A stretch of DNA of 64,000 nt from Fibrobacteria bacterium (GTDB taxonomy: Bacteria; Fibrobacterota; Fibrobacteria; UBA11236): NCBI GenBank assembly GCA_025360005.1, contig JANYDA010000006.1, forward strand, positions 124,001 to 188,000. The letters are read 5' to 3'. The notes under the pieces are model-generated. The model worked only from the letters and a program-made list of their open reading frames with translations. It ran no database searches and was not told the origin of the DNA. Positions 1,883 to 40,977 of this stretch are shown here, piece after piece. The translations under genes and the position numbers were made by a program. The first letter of the stretch is position 1. Each line of letters opens with the position of its first letter.

Positions 1883-4438
1883 TTGGCCGTCGAAGCCACC
1901 AAGACCCTCATCATAGCCGAAAAACCCAGTGTAGCGGGCGATATCGTCAAAGCCCTGCCCGAGAAGTTTGAAAAGCACGACGCCTATTACGAGAGCCCTG
2001 GCTATGTGGTCTCCTTCGCAATCGGCCATCTGGTCAGCATCGCCAATCCCAAGGACATGGACGAGCGCCTCAAGGCCTGGACCTTGGACAATCTGCCCAT
2101 CATCCCGGAAAAATTCGCCATTGCGCCTCTGCCCAAGACCAAGGCGCAGCTCTCCACCTTGGCCAAACTCCTCCGCCGCAAAGACATCAAGGAAATCATC
2201 AATGCTTGCGACGCCGGCCGCGAAGGGGAGTTGATTTTCCGCTATATCCTGCAATACGTTTCCGAAACCAAACCCGTCAAAGCAGGTATCCGGCGCCTTT
2301 GGCTGCAGAGCATGACCAAGACCGCCATCGAAGAAGGCTTCAAGCATCTCCGCAGCGATCAGGATATGCAGCATCTGGCCCAGGCGGCCATGTGCCGATC
2401 GGAAGCCGATTGGCTGGTGGGCATCAACGGTTCCCGGGCTCTTACCGGTTACAAATCCCAATGGGGAGGATTCTTCCTGACTCCCTGCGGCCGCGTGCAA
2501 ACGCCCACCCTCTCCATGATCGTGCGCCGCGAGTGGGACCGCGAGCTCTTTGTACCGCGCGACTATTGGGAAGTGCATGGCGATTTCGCTATAACGGGGA
2601 GCAAGGCGGATGCGCCCGAATACCAAGGCCGCTGGTTCGATCCGGCCTTCAAGAAAACCGAAGAAGCCGACGATGCCAAACCGGAGTACCGCGACTCCGC
2701 CAAGCCGGAGCGCATCTGGGACCAGGCCCGTGCCAAGGCAATCCAGGCCAAATGCCACGGCAAACCTGCGGACGTGACCGATACCCAGAAGCCATCCACG
2801 CAAGGAGCGCCCTCCCTTTACGATCTCACCAGCCTGCAACGCGAGGCCAATGCCCGCTTCGGGTTCTCGGCCAAGAACACCCTGGGACTGGCTCAGGCCC
2901 TGTATGAACGCCATAAGGTGCTGACCTATCCCAGAACGGACAGCCGCTACCTTCCCAATGACTACCTGGCCGTGGCCAAGGAGCTGATGCAGAACCTGAA
3001 AAAATCGGACTACGGCAAGTTCGCCACCGAGGCCCTGGAAAAGGGTTATGTGCGTATGGACAAGCGCATCTTCGACGAGTCCAAGGTCTCCGACCATCAT
3101 GCCATCATCCCCACCAACGTGATGCCGGGCGATTTGTCCGAACCGGAGCGCAAGATCTACCAGGCCGTGGTGCAGCGCTTTCTGGCGGTATTCTTTCCGC
3201 CCGCGCGCTTTCTCAACACTTCCCGCATCACCATCGTGGCGGGCGAGCATTTCCGCACGGAAGGCAAGGTACTGGAAGAGCCAGGATGGAAGGCCATCTA
3301 CGGCATCGATAAGAAGGAAGAGGCGCTGCTGCCCAATCTCAAGGCCGGTTCCAAGTATTTCGCCCAGGACGTGACCTTGCGCCAGGATGCCACCCGGCCG
3401 CCGCCGCGCCTCAACGAATCCACCCTGCTCTCCTTCATGGAAAGCGCGGGCAAGTATGTGGAAGACGAGGATCTGGCCGAGGCCATGAAGGAGCGCGGGT
3501 TGGGCACGCCCGCCACGCGCGCCGCCGTCATCGAAGGCCTGTTGTACGACAAGTACATCGTGCGCGAAGGCAAGGAGCTGGTGCCCACCGCCAAGGGCGC
3601 GGATCTGATGCGACTGCTTTCCGCCATCGGCATCGAGGAGCTGGTTTCGCCGGAATTGACGGGCGGCTGGGAGTTCAAGCTGAACCGCATCGAACGCGGC
3701 CTTTTCACGCGGCCGGAGTTCATGCAGGAGATCCAGGATTTCGCCCGCACCATCGTCAAGAAGATCAAGGGTTTCGACGAAGGCAAGGACAAGAAGCTGG
3801 CGCCTTTCACCAGCCCCATCGATGGCCAGAAGATGTTCGAGACCTTGACGCGTTATGAGTCCGAGGACGGGGCGCTGCTCATCCGCAAGGTTCTGGGCGG
3901 ACGCCAGATGTCCGAACAGGAAGTCATCGATCTGTTGAACAACCGCCAGATAGGCCCGCTGCAGGGCTTCCGCAGCAAGATGGGGAAGCCCTTCACCGCG
4001 GTCCTCAAGATCAACGACAAGAACAAGGTCGAATTCGTCTTCGACGACACCGCCTCCGGTCCGGATGGCCAGCCTCTGGATTTGGCCAAGGAAGAACCGA
4101 TCGGCATTTCACCCGTGGACCAGACCAAGGTCTATGAGACGCTGACGGGTTATATCTCGGAGAGCGCTTTGGCCGGCGACGCGAAGAAGGGTCTCAAGAT
4201 CAATAAAATGATCCTGGGTAAGACCCTGGATCGCGACATTATCAAGCGCCTGCTTTCCCTGGAGCGCACCGATTTGATCAAGGGATTCCAATCCTCCAAG
4301 ACCCGCCGCTTCTTCGACGCCTATCTGAAGCTGTCCAAAGAAGGCAAGATTTCCTTCGAGTTCCCGCCGCGGGAGTTCAAGGGACGGGGGAAGAAGAAGG
4401 TTGTGGAAGCGGAGGGGGCGGCTGCGCCGGAGGCATAG
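1883..4438 (+). CDS. topB: DNA topoisomerase III
   Basis: Type IA topoisomerase of 851 residues that cuts and passes single strands to resolve recombination and replication intermediates. The Toprim domain opens with LIIAEKPSVAGDI and contains ACDAGREGELIF (acidic metal-binding residues). The active-site Tyr349 sits in LTYPRTDSRYLP, and ERGLGTPATRAAVIEGL is the usual later motif. After the core, residues ~640..720 and ~725..835 are two copies of the C-terminal topoisomerase repeat (Toprim_Crpt type), followed by a basic tail. The start is a TTG, chosen because AGGAAGGA lies 10 bases upstream and the nearby ATG at 1873 is out of frame. The 3' end overlaps the convergent next gene by 62 bases. 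Confidence 0.95.
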   Translation: MAVEATKTLIIAEKPSVAGDIVKALPEKFEKHDAYYESPGYVVSFAIGHLVSIANPKDMDERLKAWTLDNLPIIPEKFAIAPLPKTKAQLSTLAKLLRRKDIKEIINACDAGREGELIFRYILQYVSETKPVKAGIRRLWLQSMTKTAIEEGFKHLRSDQDMQHLAQAAMCRSEADWLVGINGSRALTGYKSQWGGFFLTPCGRVQTPTLSMIVRREWDRELFVPRDYWEVHGDFAITGSKADAPEYQGRWFDPAFKKTEEADDAKPEYRDSAKPERIWDQARAKAIQAKCHGKPADVTDTQKPSTQGAPSLYDLTSLQREANARFGFSAKNTLGLAQALYERHKVLTYPRTDSRYLPNDYLAVAKELMQNLKKSDYGKFATEALEKGYVRMDKRIFDESKVSDHHAIIPTNVMPGDLSEPERKIYQAVVQRFLAVFFPPARFLNTSRITIVAGEHFRTEGKVLEEPGWKAIYGIDKKEEALLPNLKAGSKYFAQDVTLRQDATRPPPRLNESTLLSFMESAGKYVEDEDLAEAMKERGLGTPATRAAVIEGLLYDKYIVREGKELVPTAKGADLMRLLSAIGIEELVSPELTGGWEFKLNRIERGLFTRPEFMQEIQDFARTIVKKIKGFDEGKDKKLAPFTSPIDGQKMFETLTRYESEDGALLIRKVLGGRQMSEQEVIDLLNNRQIGPLQGFRSKMGKPFTAVLKINDKNKVEFVFDDTASGPDGQPLDLAKEEPIGISPVDQTKVYETLTGYISESALAGDAKKGLKINKMILGKTLDRDIIKRLLSLERTDLIKGFQSSKTRRFFDAYLKLSKEGKISFEFPPREFKGRGKKKVVEAEGAAAPEA

Positions 4439-5126
4439 TAAACTTCCGAATTGTGGCCTTCGACGTGCCTCGCAGGTATACCGTATCAATCATTGGTCGA
4501 ATTATTTTAACAGCAATAGTGTCTCGAAATGCACCGGAGTTAGTTATCGTGACTTCCCGTTTTCCAGAATTTGCAAGATAACCAGCGACAGAGACAATCA
4601 AGGATGCGCCCGCAACGGCCAACGTTATCCAGCTCTTCAGATTTGATGCCTTGTCCCTTTGATCTTCCCGGAAGAAGGCATATTCCACGGGAGTACGGAA
4701 ACCCATTTCCACGAATTCCTGCAACGTCGCTTTAATGTGAATCCTATGGTGCCGAGCATTTCCAATCGCGGTAAGAAGGGAGTAAGCCGGTATTAAATCC
4801 CTGCTCTCCGGATTAATGCGGAAAAGATTCAATTGAGGCAAAACCTGATCGGATGCCCAGGTGATCAGTTCTTTTTCGACTAGATATGCAACAACTTGGT
4901 TAAAGAAATTGATTTTTGTGACAGGTACTTCTGATCCGCCAGGGAAAAGATAAAAAGGGTCACCCCTTTTAAAAATGTAGTCCCGACCTTCAAAAGCGAA
5001 ATCCAGCGGACCAGGCATCTCCTTCTCTTCCGGTTTCAGAAATAGAGTAATGAAATCATGGTAACCCGTGACGTCACCTTTATTGATTGCTTCGATGATT
5101 TCTTTTTCGTATGTGACTAGCTTCAC
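4377..5126 (-). CDS. Hypothetical single-pass membrane protein, low-GC gene
   Basis: A 249-residue protein that I do not recognise. Residues 1..160 look soluble and mixed alpha/beta; one hydrophobic helix (WITLAVAGASLIVSVAGYLA) lies near 165..185; then ~40 residues of beta-like sequence and a Pro/Ser tail. Base composition is clearly more AT-rich than the flanking genes, which suggests recent acquisition. The Pro-rich tail is encoded by DNA antisense to the Lys/Glu/Ala-rich tail of topB, so it may be read-through sequence gained when an older stop codon was lost. It is transcribed towards topB and has its own upstream gap of ~40 bases. Confidence 0.65.
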   Translation of the reverse strand: MKLVTYEKEIIEAINKGDVTGYHDFITLFLKPEEKEMPGPLDFAFEGRDYIFKRGDPFYLFPGGSEVPVTKINFFNQVVAYLVEKELITWASDQVLPQLNLFRINPESRDLIPAYSLLTAIGNARHHRIHIKATLQEFVEMGFRTPVEYAFFREDQRDKASNLKSWITLAVAGASLIVSVAGYLANSGKREVTITNSGAFRDTIAVKIIRPMIDTVYLRGTSKATIRKFTMPPAQPPPPLPQPSSSPVP

Positions 5127-5164
5127 TCAGAAACCACTCTTTCTACTTCTTCAAGATCCTTTTC

Positions 5165-6076
5165 TCAGATCGCCGTAAACTCCGAAATAAAATACCCCCC
5201 CGTCTTATCACTCGGGTCCTTGGTCTGATGGTACACATCCAGGATCACCTGGGATCGGTAGAATTTGTTGGCCTGGTACCGGTAAAAGACCTGGCTCTTC
5301 AGCTCCTTCACGGGTTCTTCCAGGGCGCCTTCCACGAACAGCGATCGGATCTGGGTGAGATGGCTTAGTTCATCCCGATGCGCGTTGGCGTAGTCCACCT
5401 TGAAACAGGAGCCGCCCCGCTTGTTCAGATGGCGCAGGCTGCGGCTGATCACGCGGTCCGTCATCAGGCCGTCGTACATTTCCTTGGGGTTGCCGACGGC
5501 GACCTCGTCTTCCGGATCCATCTCGCGCAGACGCGCCAGCACGGTGCAAAGCTTCACATCGTCGCGGTTCTTATAGCCGTGCTTGTCGTAATAATCCTGA
5601 TCGGCAGGGGCGGGGGTGAGATTGGGGAAGACAAAGATCACCGCGTCCGCCTTGCCGGCGGGCAGGGAGAAATTGGGCAGGGAGGTTTGCACCAGGCGGA
5701 TGCGCGGGCCTTTGGCGTCGAAGCAATGCTTGGCTTGCACGGGACCGGAGGCATGCCCGGATTTGGCCAGGCGCAGGCCGGCGCGCTCCAGCATCTTGCG
5801 CGAGCCGTCCAGCGCTACGATGCGCGCCTTGGGAAAACGATCGGCCAGCGCTTGCAGGAACAGGCCGCTGCCGCAGGCATAGTCCACCAGCCATTTGGGA
5901 TTCGGCTTGCCGCGGGCCTTGAGTTGCGCTTGCACAAAGGCGGCGATGGCGTCGTAAGCCTTGCGATGGGCGCCATTGGACGCCTGATCGTGCCACCAAT
6001 CGCCCACGGCGGTGTCATAGGATTTGTGGCCCTTGAGAAAAGCCTTTTCAAAATCGATTTTCCGGTGGTCGGCCAT
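5165..6076 (-). CDS. SAM-dependent methyltransferase, class I
   Basis: A 303-residue protein. WLVDYACGSGLFLQALADRF is motif I of the Rossmann-type methyltransferases, ARIVALDGSRKML carries the acidic residue for the SAM ribose, and ADAVIFVFPNLTPAP fits motif IV. The substrate is unknown. The start at 6076 (MADHRK) is preferred over upstream codons because it lies one base after the stop of the rluD-like gene and has a purine-rich ribosome binding site within the end of that gene, so the two are translationally coupled. It is the last gene of the minus-strand group that includes lspA. Confidence 0.8.
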   Translation of the reverse strand: MADHRKIDFEKAFLKGHKSYDTAVGDWWHDQASNGAHRKAYDAIAAFVQAQLKARGKPNPKWLVDYACGSGLFLQALADRFPKARIVALDGSRKMLERAGLRLAKSGHASGPVQAKHCFDAKGPRIRLVQTSLPNFSLPAGKADAVIFVFPNLTPAPADQDYYDKHGYKNRDDVKLCTVLARLREMDPEDEVAVGNPKEMYDGLMTDRVISRSLRHLNKRGGSCFKVDYANAHRDELSHLTQIRSLFVEGALEEPVKELKSQVFYRYQANKFYRSQVILDVYHQTKDPSDKTGGYFISEFTAI

Positions 6077-6077
6077 A

Positions 6078-7064
6078 TCAGCCCTCTTGCTTGAAGCGTT
6101 CCAGGAACGCGAGCGCTTGGATGAACTCGGAGGGCAACGGGCTGGTGAATTCCATTTTCTTTTCCGTAACCGGATGGGTGAAGCTGAGGCGGTGCGCATG
6201 CAGGGCTTGCGAGGAGAAATAGGACAGCAGCTTGGTGGCGAAAGGATGGAAGATGGGTTGGATGCGGTTCAGATATGCCATGCGCCCGCCATACAGAGGA
6301 TCCCCGATGACGGGATGCTGGATATGCGCCAGGTGGACGCGGATCTGGTGGGTGCGGCCGGTCTCCAGCTCCAATTCGAAATAGGTGGCGAATTGGTAGA
6401 ACCCCAACGTGCGGAAATGCGTTACTGCGCGTTTCCCCTCCGGATGCACGCCCATCTTGAGCGGATCGCGGGGATTGCGCGCGATAGCCTGATCGACCAG
6501 GCCCGAGGTCTCGGAGGTTTCCCGCCAGGACAAGGCATGGTAGATGCGCTTGATCTCACGGGCTTCCAATTGATGCGCCAGATGCAGATGAACGGCATTC
6601 GTCTTGGCCACCACCAGCAGGCCGGAGGTATCCTTATCCAGCCGGTGGAGGATACCCGGCCGCAAGGGCCCGTTCACGTCCGAGAGTTGCCGGAACTTGT
6701 AGGCCAGCGCGTTGGCGAGCGTACCGGAATGGATGCCGTTGCCGGGATGGGTTACCATGCCCTTGGGCTTATCCACCACCAGCAGATGCTCATCCTCGTA
6801 CGCGATGGGGAAGGGGATGTCTTCCGCCTTCAGTGTGGAGGACTCGTCCGCGGCCGGGACCGCCGCCACCAATACGGCATCGCCTTCGGCCATAACGTGG
6901 TTCTTTTTGGCCGGGGCGCCGTTGACCAGGAAACAACCGGCTTCGATCCATTTCTGGACGCGGCTGCGGGAAGTGTCGGGCGCGCGCGCGCCGATGAAAA
7001 GATCGAAGCGCAATCCGGCTTCCTCCGGTCCGCATGTCCAACCGGCGCCTGCTTCAAAACTCAT
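6078..7064 (-). CDS. rluD: RluD-family 23S rRNA pseudouridine synthase
   Basis: A 328-residue protein with an N-terminal S4 RNA-binding domain (RVQKWIEAGCFLVNG, ~35..95) and a catalytic domain containing HRLDKDTSGLLVVAK, where the Asp is the nucleophile that isomerises uridine. ETGRTHQIRVHLAHIQHPVIGDPLYGG is split over the C-terminal signature expected for RluA/RluC/RluD enzymes. Overall length matches RluD. It starts 10 bases after lspA, a common bacterial pairing. Assignment to RluD rather than RluC rests on the gene order and the S4 domain and is not certain. Confidence 0.9.
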   Translation of the reverse strand: MSFEAGAGWTCGPEEAGLRFDLFIGARAPDTSRSRVQKWIEAGCFLVNGAPAKKNHVMAEGDAVLVAAVPAADESSTLKAEDIPFPIAYEDEHLLVVDKPKGMVTHPGNGIHSGTLANALAYKFRQLSDVNGPLRPGILHRLDKDTSGLLVVAKTNAVHLHLAHQLEAREIKRIYHALSWRETSETSGLVDQAIARNPRDPLKMGVHPEGKRAVTHFRTLGFYQFATYFELELETGRTHQIRVHLAHIQHPVIGDPLYGGRMAYLNRIQPIFHPFATKLLSYFSSQALHAHRLSFTHPVTEKKMEFTSPLPSEFIQALAFLERFKQEG

Positions 7065-7074
7065 GGTATATGCC

Positions 7075-7656
7075 TCAGGGGTTGGGTGCCGGGAAGGGAA
7101 CGGGCGAAGGATGGGGCGTGCGCGGGATCCAGGAGGAAAGCAGGATCATGGCCACGCCTACGCAGACGCAACTGTCCGCGATATTGAAAGTGGGCCAGCG
7201 GGCGGGGAAGGATGGGATTCCCACGTCGATGAAGTCCGTGACCTTTTGGAAGCGGAGCCGATCGATGAGATTTCCCAGCGCGCCGGAAAGGATCAGCGTG
7301 ATAGCGGCCCTTTGCCAGGCGTCCCCGCGCGGAAGCTTGCGGTAAAGAAACGCCAGGAAGCCGATGGCGATGGCGGAGAACATCACGTAGAAAACGGTGG
7401 GGTTGAGAAAGGGGACGATTTGCTGGGGACGCATCCCGAAGGCGGCGCCGGTATTGTAGATGAGGCGGAACTGGAGCCATTCGCCCAGGATATGCTTGAC
7501 CTTGTAATAATCCGGTTCTCCGCCGGGCAGGCCGAAATGGATGCGCGCCAGGAGCTTGGTGTATTGGTCCAAGGCCAAGGTGGTGAGCAACAGGATAGCC
7601 AGGTAGATTCGCGGACGCCAGGGCGAACCGGGCACGGGCGCGGTGTCCGACGTCAT
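7075..7656 (-). CDS. lspA: Lipoprotein signal peptidase II
   Basis: A 193-residue polytopic membrane aspartyl protease that removes signal peptides from diacylglyceryl-modified prolipoproteins. It has four hydrophobic helices and both catalytic Asp motifs: GALGNLIDRL and FNIADSCV. LDQYTKLL and YNTGAAFG are also family signatures. A Pro-rich C-terminal tail is present. The start overlaps the end of the upstream synthase gene by 4 bases (ATGA). Its substrates would include the lipoproteins encoded elsewhere in this window. Confidence 0.95.
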   Translation of the reverse strand: MTSDTAPVPGSPWRPRIYLAILLLTTLALDQYTKLLARIHFGLPGGEPDYYKVKHILGEWLQFRLIYNTGAAFGMRPQQIVPFLNPTVFYVMFSAIAIGFLAFLYRKLPRGDAWQRAAITLILSGALGNLIDRLRFQKVTDFIDVGIPSFPARWPTFNIADSCVCVGVAMILLSSWIPRTPHPSPVPFPAPNP

Positions 7657-8903
7657 AGCGTGGCTCCGGCCCCGGCGACGGCCTTTCCCAGAGCCTGGAC
7701 GGATTGGGGAACGGACCCGGAATGGGGGCCCGGGCCGGCGGGAGCGCGCGCCAAACCGGCTTCCAGCTTGGCTATGGATCTACGGAACATGGATCGGAGC
7801 CAGAGATTGGACCAACAGGCCAGGCTTGTGCTTCCCACGATGTCCTTTACTTGCTTGCGGGTGATCTTGAGCTTGCCTTCGCCCTGGAACCCGTTCAGGT
7901 TCTCGCCCATCAGGACCAGGTTTTCCACCGCCATGAACAATGGCCACAAGCAGAAAAGCCGCAGCCGCGGTTCCAGGCGGGGAAGCAGGCAGCTGTAGTC
8001 GAGCGCATCTTGCAAATGGGTTTTGGCCTTATGCAGGAGACGGGCCATGATGCGCGCGGCGGCCCCATTATCGCCCGCGCGTTCGGCAGTGGGCGGGGAA
8101 CCTTGCGCCTCCGATGCCAAGAAGGCATCCACGGAAAGGTTCTCTTCCGCAAGCAGCGCGGAAGGGATATAGGAAACGTTGCGTCGCCGGTCTTCCTGAA
8201 CATCCTTCAGGATATTGGTCAATTGCAATCCCAATCCAAAGGAAACCGAAAGCGCGCGCAGGGCCTTGGCCCGCCTGGCTCCGATCAAGGGAGAGTGCAG
8301 GGTGAACAGATCGCAAAGCAGGTTGCCCACCGTGCCGGCCACGTAATAGCAATACCGGTCCAGATCCTCGATGGACCCGATGAGCGCCTGACCGGAGCGC
8401 TTGGCCGCCTGCTTGCGCGTGAAGTCGATCATGCCTTGGCACATCTCGTCGACGCAGCGGGAGATGGCAGCCGCCACCGCCTCCGGAAAATCGGACAATT
8501 GCGGGTAGATCCAATCGCAATGATGCACCAGCAGCCGATCCCAGCGCTCCGAGCCGGCCCACTCCGCCGGCAACGCGGCGCGGAAAGCCTCCAGCCGAGC
8601 CTGCTTATCGCCCCCGGGCGGGAACAATCCGCGGAAGGCTTCCAGCAGCCGGATTTTCGCGGCTTCTTCCAAGTCGCCATCGTCCTCCAACGTATCCGCC
8701 ATGCGGCAAAAGAGGTAGGCCAGCAGCACTTGCCGGCGCAATCCGGCCGGCAGCACCTGGATATTGAGCGCGAAAGTACGCGAGGTCTTGGCCAGCATGA
8801 AGGCGGCGAAAGCCTTGGGATCCTCGATCCGTCCCTCCGCCATGGATTTTCTCCACGCGGCTTCCGTCTTGGGATCGGGAGTCTTCTGCGAGATCAGGAA
8901 CAT
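7653..8903 (-). CDS. Squalene/phytoene synthase-like enzyme
   Basis: Trans-isoprenyl diphosphate synthase of the head-to-head class. The first Asp-rich motif is MADTLEDDGDL and the second is ILKDVQEDRRRN; both bind Mg-diphosphate. DLDRYCYYVAGTVGNLLCDL resembles the squalene-synthase helix between them, so condensation of two farnesyl diphosphates to squalene is the most likely reaction, ahead of phytoene synthesis. A basic/aromatic C-terminal region may be membrane-associated. I start at the ATG at 8903 (MFLISQ). A TTG at 8945 would add 14 residues but lies only 5 bases past the terminator T-run of the upstream gene. No hopanoid cyclase or farnesyl-transferring partner is in the window. Confidence 0.85.
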   Translation of the reverse strand: MFLISQKTPDPKTEAAWRKSMAEGRIEDPKAFAAFMLAKTSRTFALNIQVLPAGLRRQVLLAYLFCRMADTLEDDGDLEEAAKIRLLEAFRGLFPPGGDKQARLEAFRAALPAEWAGSERWDRLLVHHCDWIYPQLSDFPEAVAAAISRCVDEMCQGMIDFTRKQAAKRSGQALIGSIEDLDRYCYYVAGTVGNLLCDLFTLHSPLIGARRAKALRALSVSFGLGLQLTNILKDVQEDRRRNVSYIPSALLAEENLSVDAFLASEAQGSPPTAERAGDNGAAARIMARLLHKAKTHLQDALDYSCLLPRLEPRLRLFCLWPLFMAVENLVLMGENLNGFQGEGKLKITRKQVKDIVGSTSLACWSNLWLRSMFRRSIAKLEAGLARAPAGPGPHSGSVPQSVQALGKAVAGAGATL

Positions 8904-38124: not shown

Positions 38125-38958
38125 CTATTCGTGCTTATCGTGGATGCTCCCCGAGGCCTTTACGGCTTCCTTGATCGAGCTCTCCAGCCCAAGGCATGCA
38201 TTGTCCTGGTCCATGGCCAGGTTCCCGAGCGTGTCCAGCAAGATGCTTCCGTCATCCAGGCATTTGGTGATGTCCGCTTGGCCCAGCCATTGATCCACGT
38301 TCAGCAGGACTATCAGCTTGTTCAGGCCCTGCGCGGATACGCCCACGCCTGCCGTGGATTCGAAGCGGGCATCTTCATTGAAGTCCAGCGCCAGGCTGAA
38401 GGTCCGGCCGCTTTTTCCGGCATAGGCGAATTCGCCTTTGATGATCATGCTGTGCCCGGCCAATCCCGGATAGGACGGCTGCGAGTCGTTTTCCGGCGCT
38501 TCCAGCCGCACCTGGATGCTTTTGTAATCGCCGACGGGAATCCGGAATACTCCCGGATCGGGTTGCCATGCGCCCGACATAAGATCCGCAACGAATGGCC
38601 CCGTGATTTCCACCTCATCGGCCTGGCAGGCGGTTTCATCCGCGCTGGAACAGCCGAGACCATCGGGAAGCTTCAGTTTAACTTTCCCGATATTCGCGTA
38701 GCCGGAGCGGATGGTGAATACGGTTCCGCCCGCGTCCGTAACGGAGAAACTTCCATCGGGATTCCGGGGCTGGGTGGCGCCCCGTTTCGCCAGGGCTTCT
38801 GTTCCGGACGCGGCCTGCATGGAGACGGTTACCGAGCCCTTGGTGGGATTGCCTACGCCGGTCCCGCCCGCGACTCTTTCCCCAATGCAAGCGGAAAGCC
38901 AGAGGGAGGCGAAGACGCCGAGCAGGGAAAGGGTTGGAATCATGCGCCGCTCACTCAT
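38125..38958 (-). CDS. Lipoprotein A of the DUF4423 cassette (DUF4382-like)
   Basis: A 277-residue protein with a lipoprotein signal peptide ending LWLSAC, so it should be anchored by its lipidated Cys. After a low-complexity stretch come beta-strand-rich blocks: VFTIRSGYANIGKVKLKL, VEITGPFVADLMSG, VFRIPVGDYKSIQVRLE and LNKLIVLLNVDQWLG. These align with the lipoprotein at 39847..40746, so the two are paralogues. The fold looks like DUF4382-type carbohydrate-binding or adhesin-like beta sandwiches; this is inference. The chosen ATG overlaps the end of the regulator gene by 8 bases and has AAGGA upstream. Confidence 0.75.
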   Translation of the reverse strand: MSERRMIPTLSLLGVFASLWLSACIGERVAGGTGVGNPTKGSVTVSMQAASGTEALAKRGATQPRNPDGSFSVTDAGGTVFTIRSGYANIGKVKLKLPDGLGCSSADETACQADEVEITGPFVADLMSGAWQPDPGVFRIPVGDYKSIQVRLEAPENDSQPSYPGLAGHSMIIKGEFAYAGKSGRTFSLALDFNEDARFESTAGVGVSAQGLNKLIVLLNVDQWLGQADITKCLDDGSILLDTLGNLAMDQDNACLGLESSIKEAVKASGSIHDKHE

Positions 38959-39796
38959 CTTTTCCATCCTTCATTTCGGCCAGCGGAAATACCTGCATGT
39001 TAACCTGGTAGATCTCCTCGACAGCGCCGTCGGTTTCCGACAGCGCCAGGATCTCGCGCCACAATCCCTCGATCTTGGCTTTTATTTCCCGGTACCTTGA
39101 ACTGGGGACGCCCAGCGTCACGGATCGCAAATCGCGGGCGTGGGAAGGGAATCCCTCGATTGAGTCGGCCGCCAGCTTCAATACGGTCCGATGGTAATTG
39201 GCCACCGCCAGCGATTCGATTTCCGCCGGGGTGCTGATCTGGATTTCGGTTTGGGTCCATTTTCCCGTCGCCGGATCCGATTTGATCATCCCCAGCTTGC
39301 CCAGTAGTTGGATGGATTTCTCCACTTGCGATACGGTGACCTTGGGCCGCAGCCTTAAGGCTATCCAGGCGGGGTCGCCCTTGTAATCCTTGTGCACCAG
39401 CATTTCCCTGACCGCGGGATGATACCATTGATCCAGGTATTCAAATTGGCCCCTCTCGATGGGCCGGGCTTCCGCGAACTTGCGCGATCGCAGCATCCGC
39501 TGGTAATGGAAATTCTTTTCTTCGAATCCTACCGCCTGATCGAACGCGACCATGTTGGCGAAGAATTCGGATTCCTGTTTATTCAGTCCCAGGGCGCGGA
39601 TTGTGCCCGGCAGGCTGGCGGGGGAAAGGTTGCGCTTTCCGGAGATCACCAGTTGCAGGAAGTTGGGAGAGCTGTAGCCCGCCTCTTTGGCGAAGGCGCG
39701 GAAAGAGGCTTTCCTATCCTTCGCTTGCATCGCTTCCCGGGCGTCGCGCAGGTATTTGCGGTAATCCAGGTATGCGAACAGGTCGGGCGATGTCAT
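38951..39796 (-). CDS. TIGR02147/DUF4423-family protein, putative regulator
   Basis: A 281-residue protein. The start MTSPDLFAYLDYRKYLRD and the helix-turn-helix-like block FRAFAKEAGYSSPNFLQLVI, then SGKRNLSPASLPGTIRALGL, are hallmarks of the TIGR02147 family. The rest (residues ~110..275) is the DUF4423-like region, with winged-helix features (VTVSQVEKSIQLLGKLGMIK). From memory the family is numerous in Fibrobacter and its function is not established. It lies between two paralogous lipoprotein genes on one strand, so regulation of, or sensing through, those lipoproteins is the simplest idea. Confidence 0.8.
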   Translation of the reverse strand: MTSPDLFAYLDYRKYLRDAREAMQAKDRKASFRAFAKEAGYSSPNFLQLVISGKRNLSPASLPGTIRALGLNKQESEFFANMVAFDQAVGFEEKNFHYQRMLRSRKFAEARPIERGQFEYLDQWYHPAVREMLVHKDYKGDPAWIALRLRPKVTVSQVEKSIQLLGKLGMIKSDPATGKWTQTEIQISTPAEIESLAVANYHRTVLKLAADSIEGFPSHARDLRSVTLGVPSSRYREIKAKIEGLWREILALSETDGAVEEIYQVNMQVFPLAEMKDGKDE

Positions 39797-39846
39797 ATAC
39801 TTTCGCTTTGAAAATAACCGGTTGGAGTCCCGCCGTCATGGGCGCG

Positions 39847-40746
39847 CTATTTGCCTTTTCCGGAATCGGCCTCTGGGGCGCCTTTGCCGCCGTCGGTTTC
39901 CGGTTCGTCCTTTTCGTCCGCTTGGCAGGATTTCTTGAAGCTATCCTTGAGGATGTGTTCCGCGTCCAGGCATTTGCCCATCGCGGAGCTTTCGGAAACG
40001 ACGATTTCCCGTCCCGCCGCCGTGGTATCCGAGGCCAGGCATCCCGAAACGTCCAGCTTGGCAAGCCAATCCCCGGCGTTGATGGCCACTAGAATGGTGT
40101 GGATGCCTGAGCCATCCAGCGTTATCCCGGCCTTGCTCTTGATCTTGAGATCCTCATGCAAGCGCAGGTCCAGGGAAAAGGGCCGGCTGGTTCCGTCGGG
40201 TCGGGTGAGCGTCCCTTTGGCGATCAAGGTGCTTCCGTTGAGGGCCGACGTATCGCCAAGGTTACCATGGTCCAGGCGCAGTTTGATTTCGGAATAGGAT
40301 CCGGCGGGAACGGTCATGGGAGCGATTTCCGGCGAAGAGGTACCGTTGATCAGATCTACGATGAATGGTCCCTTAAGGTTCAGATCTTGCCCCTCGTCGC
40401 ACTCCGGAGCTTCGATCTCGGTGGAATCGCCTTCCTTAGCCAGCATTACCTTATTACCGGATGAGTCGCAACCCGTTTGGATGTCATCCGACCCTTCCTC
40501 CGATTCCAGTTTGATGCTCTTTACATAAAGGTGCGCCTCGGTCACCGTAAATGTGCTTCCGGATGCGTCGGAAAGCTGCAAGCCTCCCGCGGCTGCGGAC
40601 TTGGCCAATGTCGAGGCGGCGGCAGTGGCTTGGAATTGGAATTTGGCGGTTGCGTTGGCCTGCGAATCCGGGCTTTGGAACAAGCAGGCGGAAAAAAGTG
40701 TGGCTGCCCCGGCGGCGGTCAGGATCAATACGTTTCGGTTTTTCAT
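39847..40746 (-). CDS. Lipoprotein B of the DUF4423 cassette (DUF4382-like)
   Basis: A 299-residue protein from the ATG at 40746, preceded by GGGAGGA. The signal peptide ends TLFSAC, a lipobox. The body has STFTVTEAHLYVKSIKLE, LKGPFIVDLINGT, MTVPAGSYSEIKLRLD and GIHTILVAINAGDWLAKLDV, which align block by block with lipoprotein A, including the spacing around GPF-V-DL. Six Cys residues in the mature part may form disulfides. The C-terminal tail is Gly/Lys/Asp-rich. A very AT-rich promoter region precedes it. Confidence 0.78.
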   Translation of the reverse strand: MKNRNVLILTAAGAATLFSACLFQSPDSQANATAKFQFQATAAASTLAKSAAAGGLQLSDASGSTFTVTEAHLYVKSIKLESEEGSDDIQTGCDSSGNKVMLAKEGDSTEIEAPECDEGQDLNLKGPFIVDLINGTSSPEIAPMTVPAGSYSEIKLRLDHGNLGDTSALNGSTLIAKGTLTRPDGTSRPFSLDLRLHEDLKIKSKAGITLDGSGIHTILVAINAGDWLAKLDVSGCLASDTTAAGREIVVSESSAMGKCLDAEHILKDSFKKSCQADEKDEPETDGGKGAPEADSGKGK

Positions 40747-40749
40747 GGT

Positions 40750-40905
40750 ATCCTCCCGGCGGAAATGTTGGATCCGCCCGATGATCCGAAGATACCCCAT
40801 TCTGAATTTAAAATACAGATAAAAATAAAAATATTTTTGAATAAAATTCATTTATTCGGATTGTATTTTACATAATCAATTGATTTTAAAGGAGTTACAA
40901 AGTGC
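40750..40905 (-). promoter_or_regulatory. AT-rich promoter region of the lipoprotein cassette
   Basis: About 155 bases of exceptionally AT-rich DNA (especially 40800..40890) separate lipoprotein B from the parC terminator. The stretch includes short palindromes such as CAATTGATTT-type sites near 40877. No single -35/-10 pair stands out, so I mark the region rather than a site. Confidence 0.4.
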
Positions 40906-40950
40906 AAAAAAATCAAAATAAAAAAGGTGAACTATTTTTAAGTTCACCTT
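40906..40950 (-). terminator. Rho-independent terminator after parC
   Basis: Read on the minus strand, a perfect 10-bp stem AAGGTGAACT / AGTTCACCTT (40924..40950) with a 7-base loop is followed by a long T-rich run (A-rich on the plus strand, 40906..40923). It lies 27 bases after the parC stop codon and insulates the lipoprotein cassette. Confidence 0.85.
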
Positions 40951-40977
40951 CTTGAAATTAAAAGAAAGATAAGAAGC

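Follow-up and report, generated by a model that had tools for sequence, protein, structure and literature searches.

We estimate a probability of roughly 60 % that the locus described here is one instance of a module of two genes, in which a TIGR02147/DUF4423 regulator is paired with a tagged secreted partner, many such pairs forming an autoregulated repertoire whose partners are linked by their tag to a common component. Comparison at the level of sequence demonstrates the pairing itself, the overlap of the two genes, the tag and its exclusivity in the scanned genomes, the swappable nature of the ectodomains, and a partner fold class that tracks the regulator subfamily. The copy lies in a window of 64,000 nucleotides (the whole stretch of DNA that was analysed) within contig C11 of a 4.98 Mb Fibrobacterota genome with a fragmented assembly, where LipoA, regulator, and LipoB follow one another in this order on the minus strand (Table 1).

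Table 1. Features of the LipoA-regulator-LipoB cassette, in positions of the window.
Feature	Position	Strand	Description
TGAACT-N7-AGTTCA inverted repeat	40928..40946	-	inside terminator-like hairpin 40921-40953; candidate regulator half-sites
AT-rich leader/promoter region of the LipoA-regulator-LipoB transcript	40747..40905	-	
Degenerate pair TGAATTT ... AAATTCA	40803..40850	-	where the orthologs have their second TGAACTT ... AGTTCA; candidate operator/promoter
LipoA	39847..40746	-	upstream DUF4382 lipoprotein paralog
TIGR02147/DUF4423 regulator	38951..39796	-	profile matches, AF2 model
LipoB	38125..38958	-	downstream lipoprotein partner of the regulator, DUF4382/MbnP-like beta-sandwich
LipoB lipid-anchor cysteine	38887..38889	-	residue 24, lipobox LSAC, from sequence
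LipoB N-terminal tag	38845..38865	-	residues 32-38, GTGVGNP

The sequence-only reading had proposed that two paralogous lipoproteins flank a TIGR02147/DUF4423 protein on a single strand with an 8-base overlap, and this layout was confirmed: LipoA and LipoB are homologous (BLASTP E 2e-26, 27 % identity across most of LipoB), and the end of the regulator gene shares 8 bases with the start of LipoB. LipoA, whose lipobox reads SAC, starts at an ATG at 40746 with the ribosome site GGGAGGA, a site good enough to make the longer reading frame from 40851 dispensable; in the 50-nt gap between LipoA and the regulator, no terminator-like site was found on the cassette strand. The GPF-V-DL block noted earlier does occur in both lipoproteins, yet it is not specific to this pair, as it runs through the whole DUF4382-like partner class including that of Myxococcota. 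A topoisomerase-IV-like gene lies 5' of the cassette, and a methyltransferase gene is convergent with it. The strong terminator that had been postulated is present downstream of the topoisomerase-like gene as a 13-pair stem (40953-40921) with a T run, and the AT-rich leader comes next.

The regulator is a clear member of TIGR02147 (264.7 bits, cut-off 50; residues 5-274 on model positions 3-271 of 272) and of the Pfam family DUF4423 (137.6 bits, gathering cut-off 30). Its AF2 model (pLDDT 88, pTM 0.65) comprises a predicted N-terminal XRE-like HTH (residues ~12-87), a winged-helix-like domain (~125-182), and a C-terminal helix and strand; the Foldseek matches, with XRE (C.AhdI) and ArsR/MarR-type wHTH proteins, were all local, and no full-length PDB relative had an E below 0.08. 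LipoA exceeds the Pfam cut-off for DUF4382 (29.6 bits, gathering cut-off 25), and LipoB matches no Pfam or NCBIfam model, DUF4382 included, its tie to LipoA running through BLASTP alone. LipoB is modelled as a beta-sandwich (pLDDT 87, pTM 0.79), with MbnP (7L6G) as the sole significant PDB match (Foldseek E 8e-5, probability 1.0), yet at a TM of 0.32-0.42; given their homology, LipoA is expected to share this fold. By sequence, LipoA scores below the MbnP Pfam cut-off (15.3 bits against 27) and LipoB does not match this profile. A copper site as in MbnP is not indicated, as no histidine is conserved in the alignment.

Counting the source genome, the cassette is kept in five of the six genomes of the genus, as a triple on a single contig in G002, G003, and G005 and divided between two contigs in G004. 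Where the flanks are visible, the topoisomerase-like and methyltransferase genes border it in G002, G003, and G004 as they do in the window, and G005 has different flanks. Relative to G002, dN/dS (NG86; rough values, with dS above 1) amounts to 0.10 for LipoA, 0.12 for the regulator, and 0.19 for LipoB, so that all three genes look functional and under purifying selection. Since LipoB and its orthologs carry the tag described below (GTG[VI]GNP in all orthologs), which was sought in LipoA and the LipoA orthologs and found absent, the three-gene layout is a genus-level elaboration of a core that consists of the regulator and the downstream tagged LipoB, with LipoA as an added paralog. Two further arrangements were seen in G000. 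At L079 (contig C63, 91800-104500), a tandem of two regulator-partner pairs of the same DUF4382-like class (4244-8143) has a short lipoprotein gene (136-155 aa) in front of it, a second route to an added upstream lipoprotein; such a short gene also lies 5' of the regulator in G002 (L103), G004 (L104), and G005 (L101). At L065 (contig C17, 20900-33500), two divergent pairs surround a gene of ~150-170 aa (EMSFM or similar), a composite kept in three other Fibrobacterota genomes (L166, L167, L170).

The pairing extends far beyond this cassette. The source genome holds 34 TIGR02147 matches, corresponding to about 33 genes, and for each match 5 kb on either side were taken and genes called. As partner we counted a lipobox ORF whose start falls between -60 and +160 relative to the regulator stop; this lipobox rule was applied alike to partners and controls (a stricter earlier one caught 15/33 partners), signal peptides being assigned by rules rather than by a trained predictor. 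A lipoprotein gene lies directly 3' of 31 of the 32 testable regulators (30 by the rule, one by eye), and ordinary genes of the same genome showed one in 48/524 cases (9 %). Sampled loci of Fibrobacter and of diverse other Fibrobacterota had a downstream lipoprotein in 30/30 cases each, and named contigs of GTDB genomes in 22/25 by the rule. Set against the control, the 31/32 and the combined 60/60 of other Fibrobacterota substantiate the earlier suggestion of a lipoprotein coupled to a dedicated regulator; the finding that would have spoken against it, TIGR02147 genes without any preference for lipoprotein neighbours, is contradicted by a wide margin. The notion that this is typical of Fibrobacter relatives also holds but is too narrow, as about 43 of 48 TIGR02147 copies in 14 genomes from outside the phylum (Myxococcota, other former Deltaproteobacteria, and 'Proteobacteria' MAGs) are followed by a lipoprotein or another secreted protein. 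A first set of these contributed 26/29 testable copies, 22 being lipoproteins by the rule and four assigned by eye (one lipoprotein and three tagged non-lipid secreted proteins), and a second set a secreted partner in 17/19 further testable copies. Regulator and partner are most often spaced by the ATGA overlap (-4), in 67/112 pairs; as many pairs share ancestry through orthology or paralogy, these counts do not represent independent events. One or two regulators of the source genome lack a clear partner, namely a full-length one (L086, 3222-4166) and a truncated one of 159 aa (L091, 4948-5424), and elsewhere regulators without a clear partner occur at, e.g., L274, L279, L282, L293, and L295.

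The partners have no common fold. Their biggest class begins with a CarboxypepD_reg domain, a DUF4382-like class contains LipoA and LipoB, other partners match no family, and the recognizable domains also include a weak CBM35 and the MbnP-like fold. DUF4382-like neighbours, on which the sequence-only reading had focused, thus do occur, but as a special case among many kinds of tagged secreted protein. What the partners have in common is the tag, G-T-[DE]-[TV]-G-N, often continued by P or G, which is located shortly past the signal peptide or lipid cysteine. LipoB, directly 3' of its TIGR02147 gene, carries it near the mature N-terminus in the form G-x-x-[TV]-G-N (CIGERVAGGTGVGNP). With a seven-column PWM trained on partners from other genomes only, 17 of 28 partners of the source genome outscored every one of 84 background lipoproteins (from 40 stretches of 20 kb of the same genome; Mann-Whitney p 5e-13). 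Furthermore, a DNA-pattern scan of eight whole genomes for GT[DE][ATVI]GN gave 30 matches, of which 14 fell at a lipoprotein N-terminus, all 14 directly behind TIGR02147, and the other 16 outside lipoproteins. Tag variants are weak in some clades (DFPN, SEAE, and the G072 proteins). A separate partner class with the divergent tag [DE]FPN (L087, 5906-7372; L088; L141; L149) is associated with a deep regulator clade of its own.

Could the tag simply be an envelope sorting or surface-export signal, with TIGR02147 controlling nothing beyond the expression of its cargo? It sits where sorting signals act, a few to about 20 residues past the lipid cysteine, and Fibrobacterota are related to Bacteroidota, whose lipoprotein export signal is likewise short and close to the lipid cysteine. 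The tag, however, differs from that signal in sequence, stands at a variable distance from the cysteine, and is confined to TIGR02147 partners, being missing from the rest of the lipoproteins sampled in the source genome. It also outlasts the cysteine: the partners of G068 possess ordinary signal peptides without a lipid cysteine and retain the tag at the mature N-terminus (e.g. YA|TGPEVGNGG, LA|GGTEVGSGG, WA|GHEVGNGG), which argues that it is a feature of the mature N-terminus and of this module rather than of lipoproteins generally. We regard the sorting or export reading as rather unlikely. In this 2.0 Mb genome, with 14 copies (L283-L292), the non-lipidated partners begin with VGNGG or a GGG variant, so that the type of signal peptide has been switched.

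Partner class follows regulator subfamily. On a regulator tree of 77 pairs, partner class requires 12 changes against a mean of 34.7 after shuffling (as low in 0/200 shuffles), and the split between CarboxypepD-type and DUF4382-type partners needs only 2 changes. A profile of DUF4382-like partners, built from Fibrobacterota only, retrieved five Myxococcota or deltaproteobacterial partners (E 1e-11 to 2e-5) as the next-best matches among 1398 proteins, all five adjacent to TIGR02147. Judged from these alignments and trees, a given kind of regulator goes with a given partner fold and the tag is common to all, the clustering being partly plain inheritance. Many of the counted pairs are indeed mutually orthologous or paralogous, as would be expected if the regulator stood beside a lipoprotein by chance and the neighbourhood was vertically inherited within Fibrobacterota. 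Such an ordinary neighbourhood is nevertheless very improbable, as it is contradicted by the recurrence of the layout in genomes of Myxococcota and further non-Fibrobacterota, by a control of 9 %, and by the identical tag on partners of different folds. For Fibrobacter succinogenes S85, several lipoproteins with a carboxypeptidase-regulatory-like domain, the type that characterizes the biggest partner class, have been reported in the envelope proteome, at lower levels on cellulose than on glucose (PMC6851124); these are likely TIGR02147 partners.

The upstream regions offer candidate operators. In five orthologous upstream regions, TGAACT/AGTTCA occurs 17 times (shuffles: mean 0.55, max 4), the promoters being orthologous and non-independent and one copy overlapping the terminator hairpin; in the equally non-independent regions of a sister clade, TGAATCA occurs 7 times (shuffles: mean 0.37, max 3). 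Each half-site is absent from the other clade. Within the hairpin, the core TGAACT/AGTTCA is kept in 4/5 orthologs and the outer stem varies with compensation, and from this pattern the element may double as terminator and regulator site. A single sigma-70-like match (40889-40860) is weak and no better than in shuffles. In general, palindromes 5' of TIGR02147 genes were not significantly in excess over control promoters, and no operator motif common to all 33 TIGR02147 promoters was found. The idea that the cassette is phase-regulated found no support, although a phase-variable envelope locus would fit the presence of paralogous envelope genes in one cassette: no invertible or short tandem (slippage) repeats flank it, the sole inverted pair nearby is a chance-like one of 14 nt with its arms 1 kb apart, and the same gene order is kept in five species. 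Phase variation is accordingly hardly credible here.

In the module that we favour, the TIGR02147 protein, with its XRE-like HTH and winged helix, would act in the cytoplasm as a one-component DNA-binding protein. Its translation would be coupled to that of a secreted partner, usually lipid-anchored, which bears the module-specific tag at its mature N-terminus. The regulator would bind the promoter of its own operon, presumably through TGAACT half-sites in the window clade and TGAATCA in the sister clade, and so set the dose of its partner. The ~30 parallel copies may then supply the envelope with a set of binding or sensing proteins with one controller each. The tag would link partners whose folds are unrelated to a single component that all have in common, be it the regulator, prior to export, or an envelope machine that they share. 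Within the window, LipoB would be the core partner and LipoA a duplicated, tag-less copy under the same promoter.

A more far-reaching variant has the partner sense an extracellular ligand and report its state (free, bound, processed, or export-stalled) through the tagged N-terminus to the cognate regulator, making each module a private surface-sensing circuit. One regulator per partner, a partner fold that follows the regulator clade, and unrelated ectodomains with only the tag in common would all suit such circuits. So would the carbohydrate-related domains (CarboxypepD_reg, weak CBM35); these and the MbnP-like fold agree with binding or sensing, and the earlier idea of surface sensing stays conjectural. 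No path by which a signal could reach the cytoplasmic regulator is visible, however: neither the cassette nor the surroundings of the regulator-partner pairs include a membrane-spanning, signalling, or transducer gene, which leaves the route from partner to regulator unexplained, the regulator has no membrane segment, and contact between tag and regulator is purely hypothetical. As no transducer was found, we rank this sensory scheme as a rival, possible though rather doubtful, and not as our main claim, which is the autoregulated module with its tag. More tentatively, and at somewhat less than even odds, TIGR02147 and the tag might define a distinct signalling or secretion-linked system, at least in Fibrobacterota and Myxococcota, with the tag as recognition element and the ectodomains swapped around a constant core. 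Were the recognition-tag reading true, up to about 30-50 private circuits of one regulator and one envelope protein would exist per genome.

The widespread pair of regulator and tagged secreted protein is apparently undescribed so far. The NCBIfam entry of TIGR02147 (Fsuc_second) speaks of a paralogous family only, and neither its description nor that of DUF4423 includes the near-obligate tagged partner seen here. In the open-access papers searched (subscription papers being outside the scope), TIGR02147 was not named and the string TEVGNP was not found, DUF4423 appears only with Bd3700, listed in a Bdellovibrio proteome table (PMC12546842), and DUF4382 is named in a single paper. Our observations thus provide a partner and a testable role for a large regulator family, often with 15-50 copies per Fibrobacterota genome, and the short tag lets partner proteins be recognised despite having no common fold. 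Altogether, the pattern of sequences suggests that envelope proteins with a controller apiece make up a large family.

Among known systems, HigA-type antitoxins share a weak likeness in the HTH (E 0.02), but a toxin-antitoxin reading was rejected as there is no toxin-like partner, and a defence reading likewise, as PADLOC models match none of the three cassette proteins. RRNPP-type regulators (PrgX/cCF10) use lipoprotein-derived peptides as signals and contain TPR repeats. Like them, TIGR02147 proteins are cytoplasmic HTH proteins, about 280-310 residues long, with a lipoprotein attached to them as a potential signal source; unlike in them, the C-terminal half of the regulator modelled here is predicted as a winged helix followed by a helix and strand instead of TPR repeats, which speaks against a peptide-sensing TPR regulator, and the conserved element resides in the mature protein and not in the signal peptide. 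While co-transcription of a regulator with its target is familiar from other systems, the near-obligate link to a tag at the mature N-terminus is, as far as could be tested, new. If the partners were sensors, the modules would represent, in the cellulose-degrading Fibrobacterota, a one-component counterpart to the sigma/anti-sigma and SusCD repertoires of Bacteroidota.
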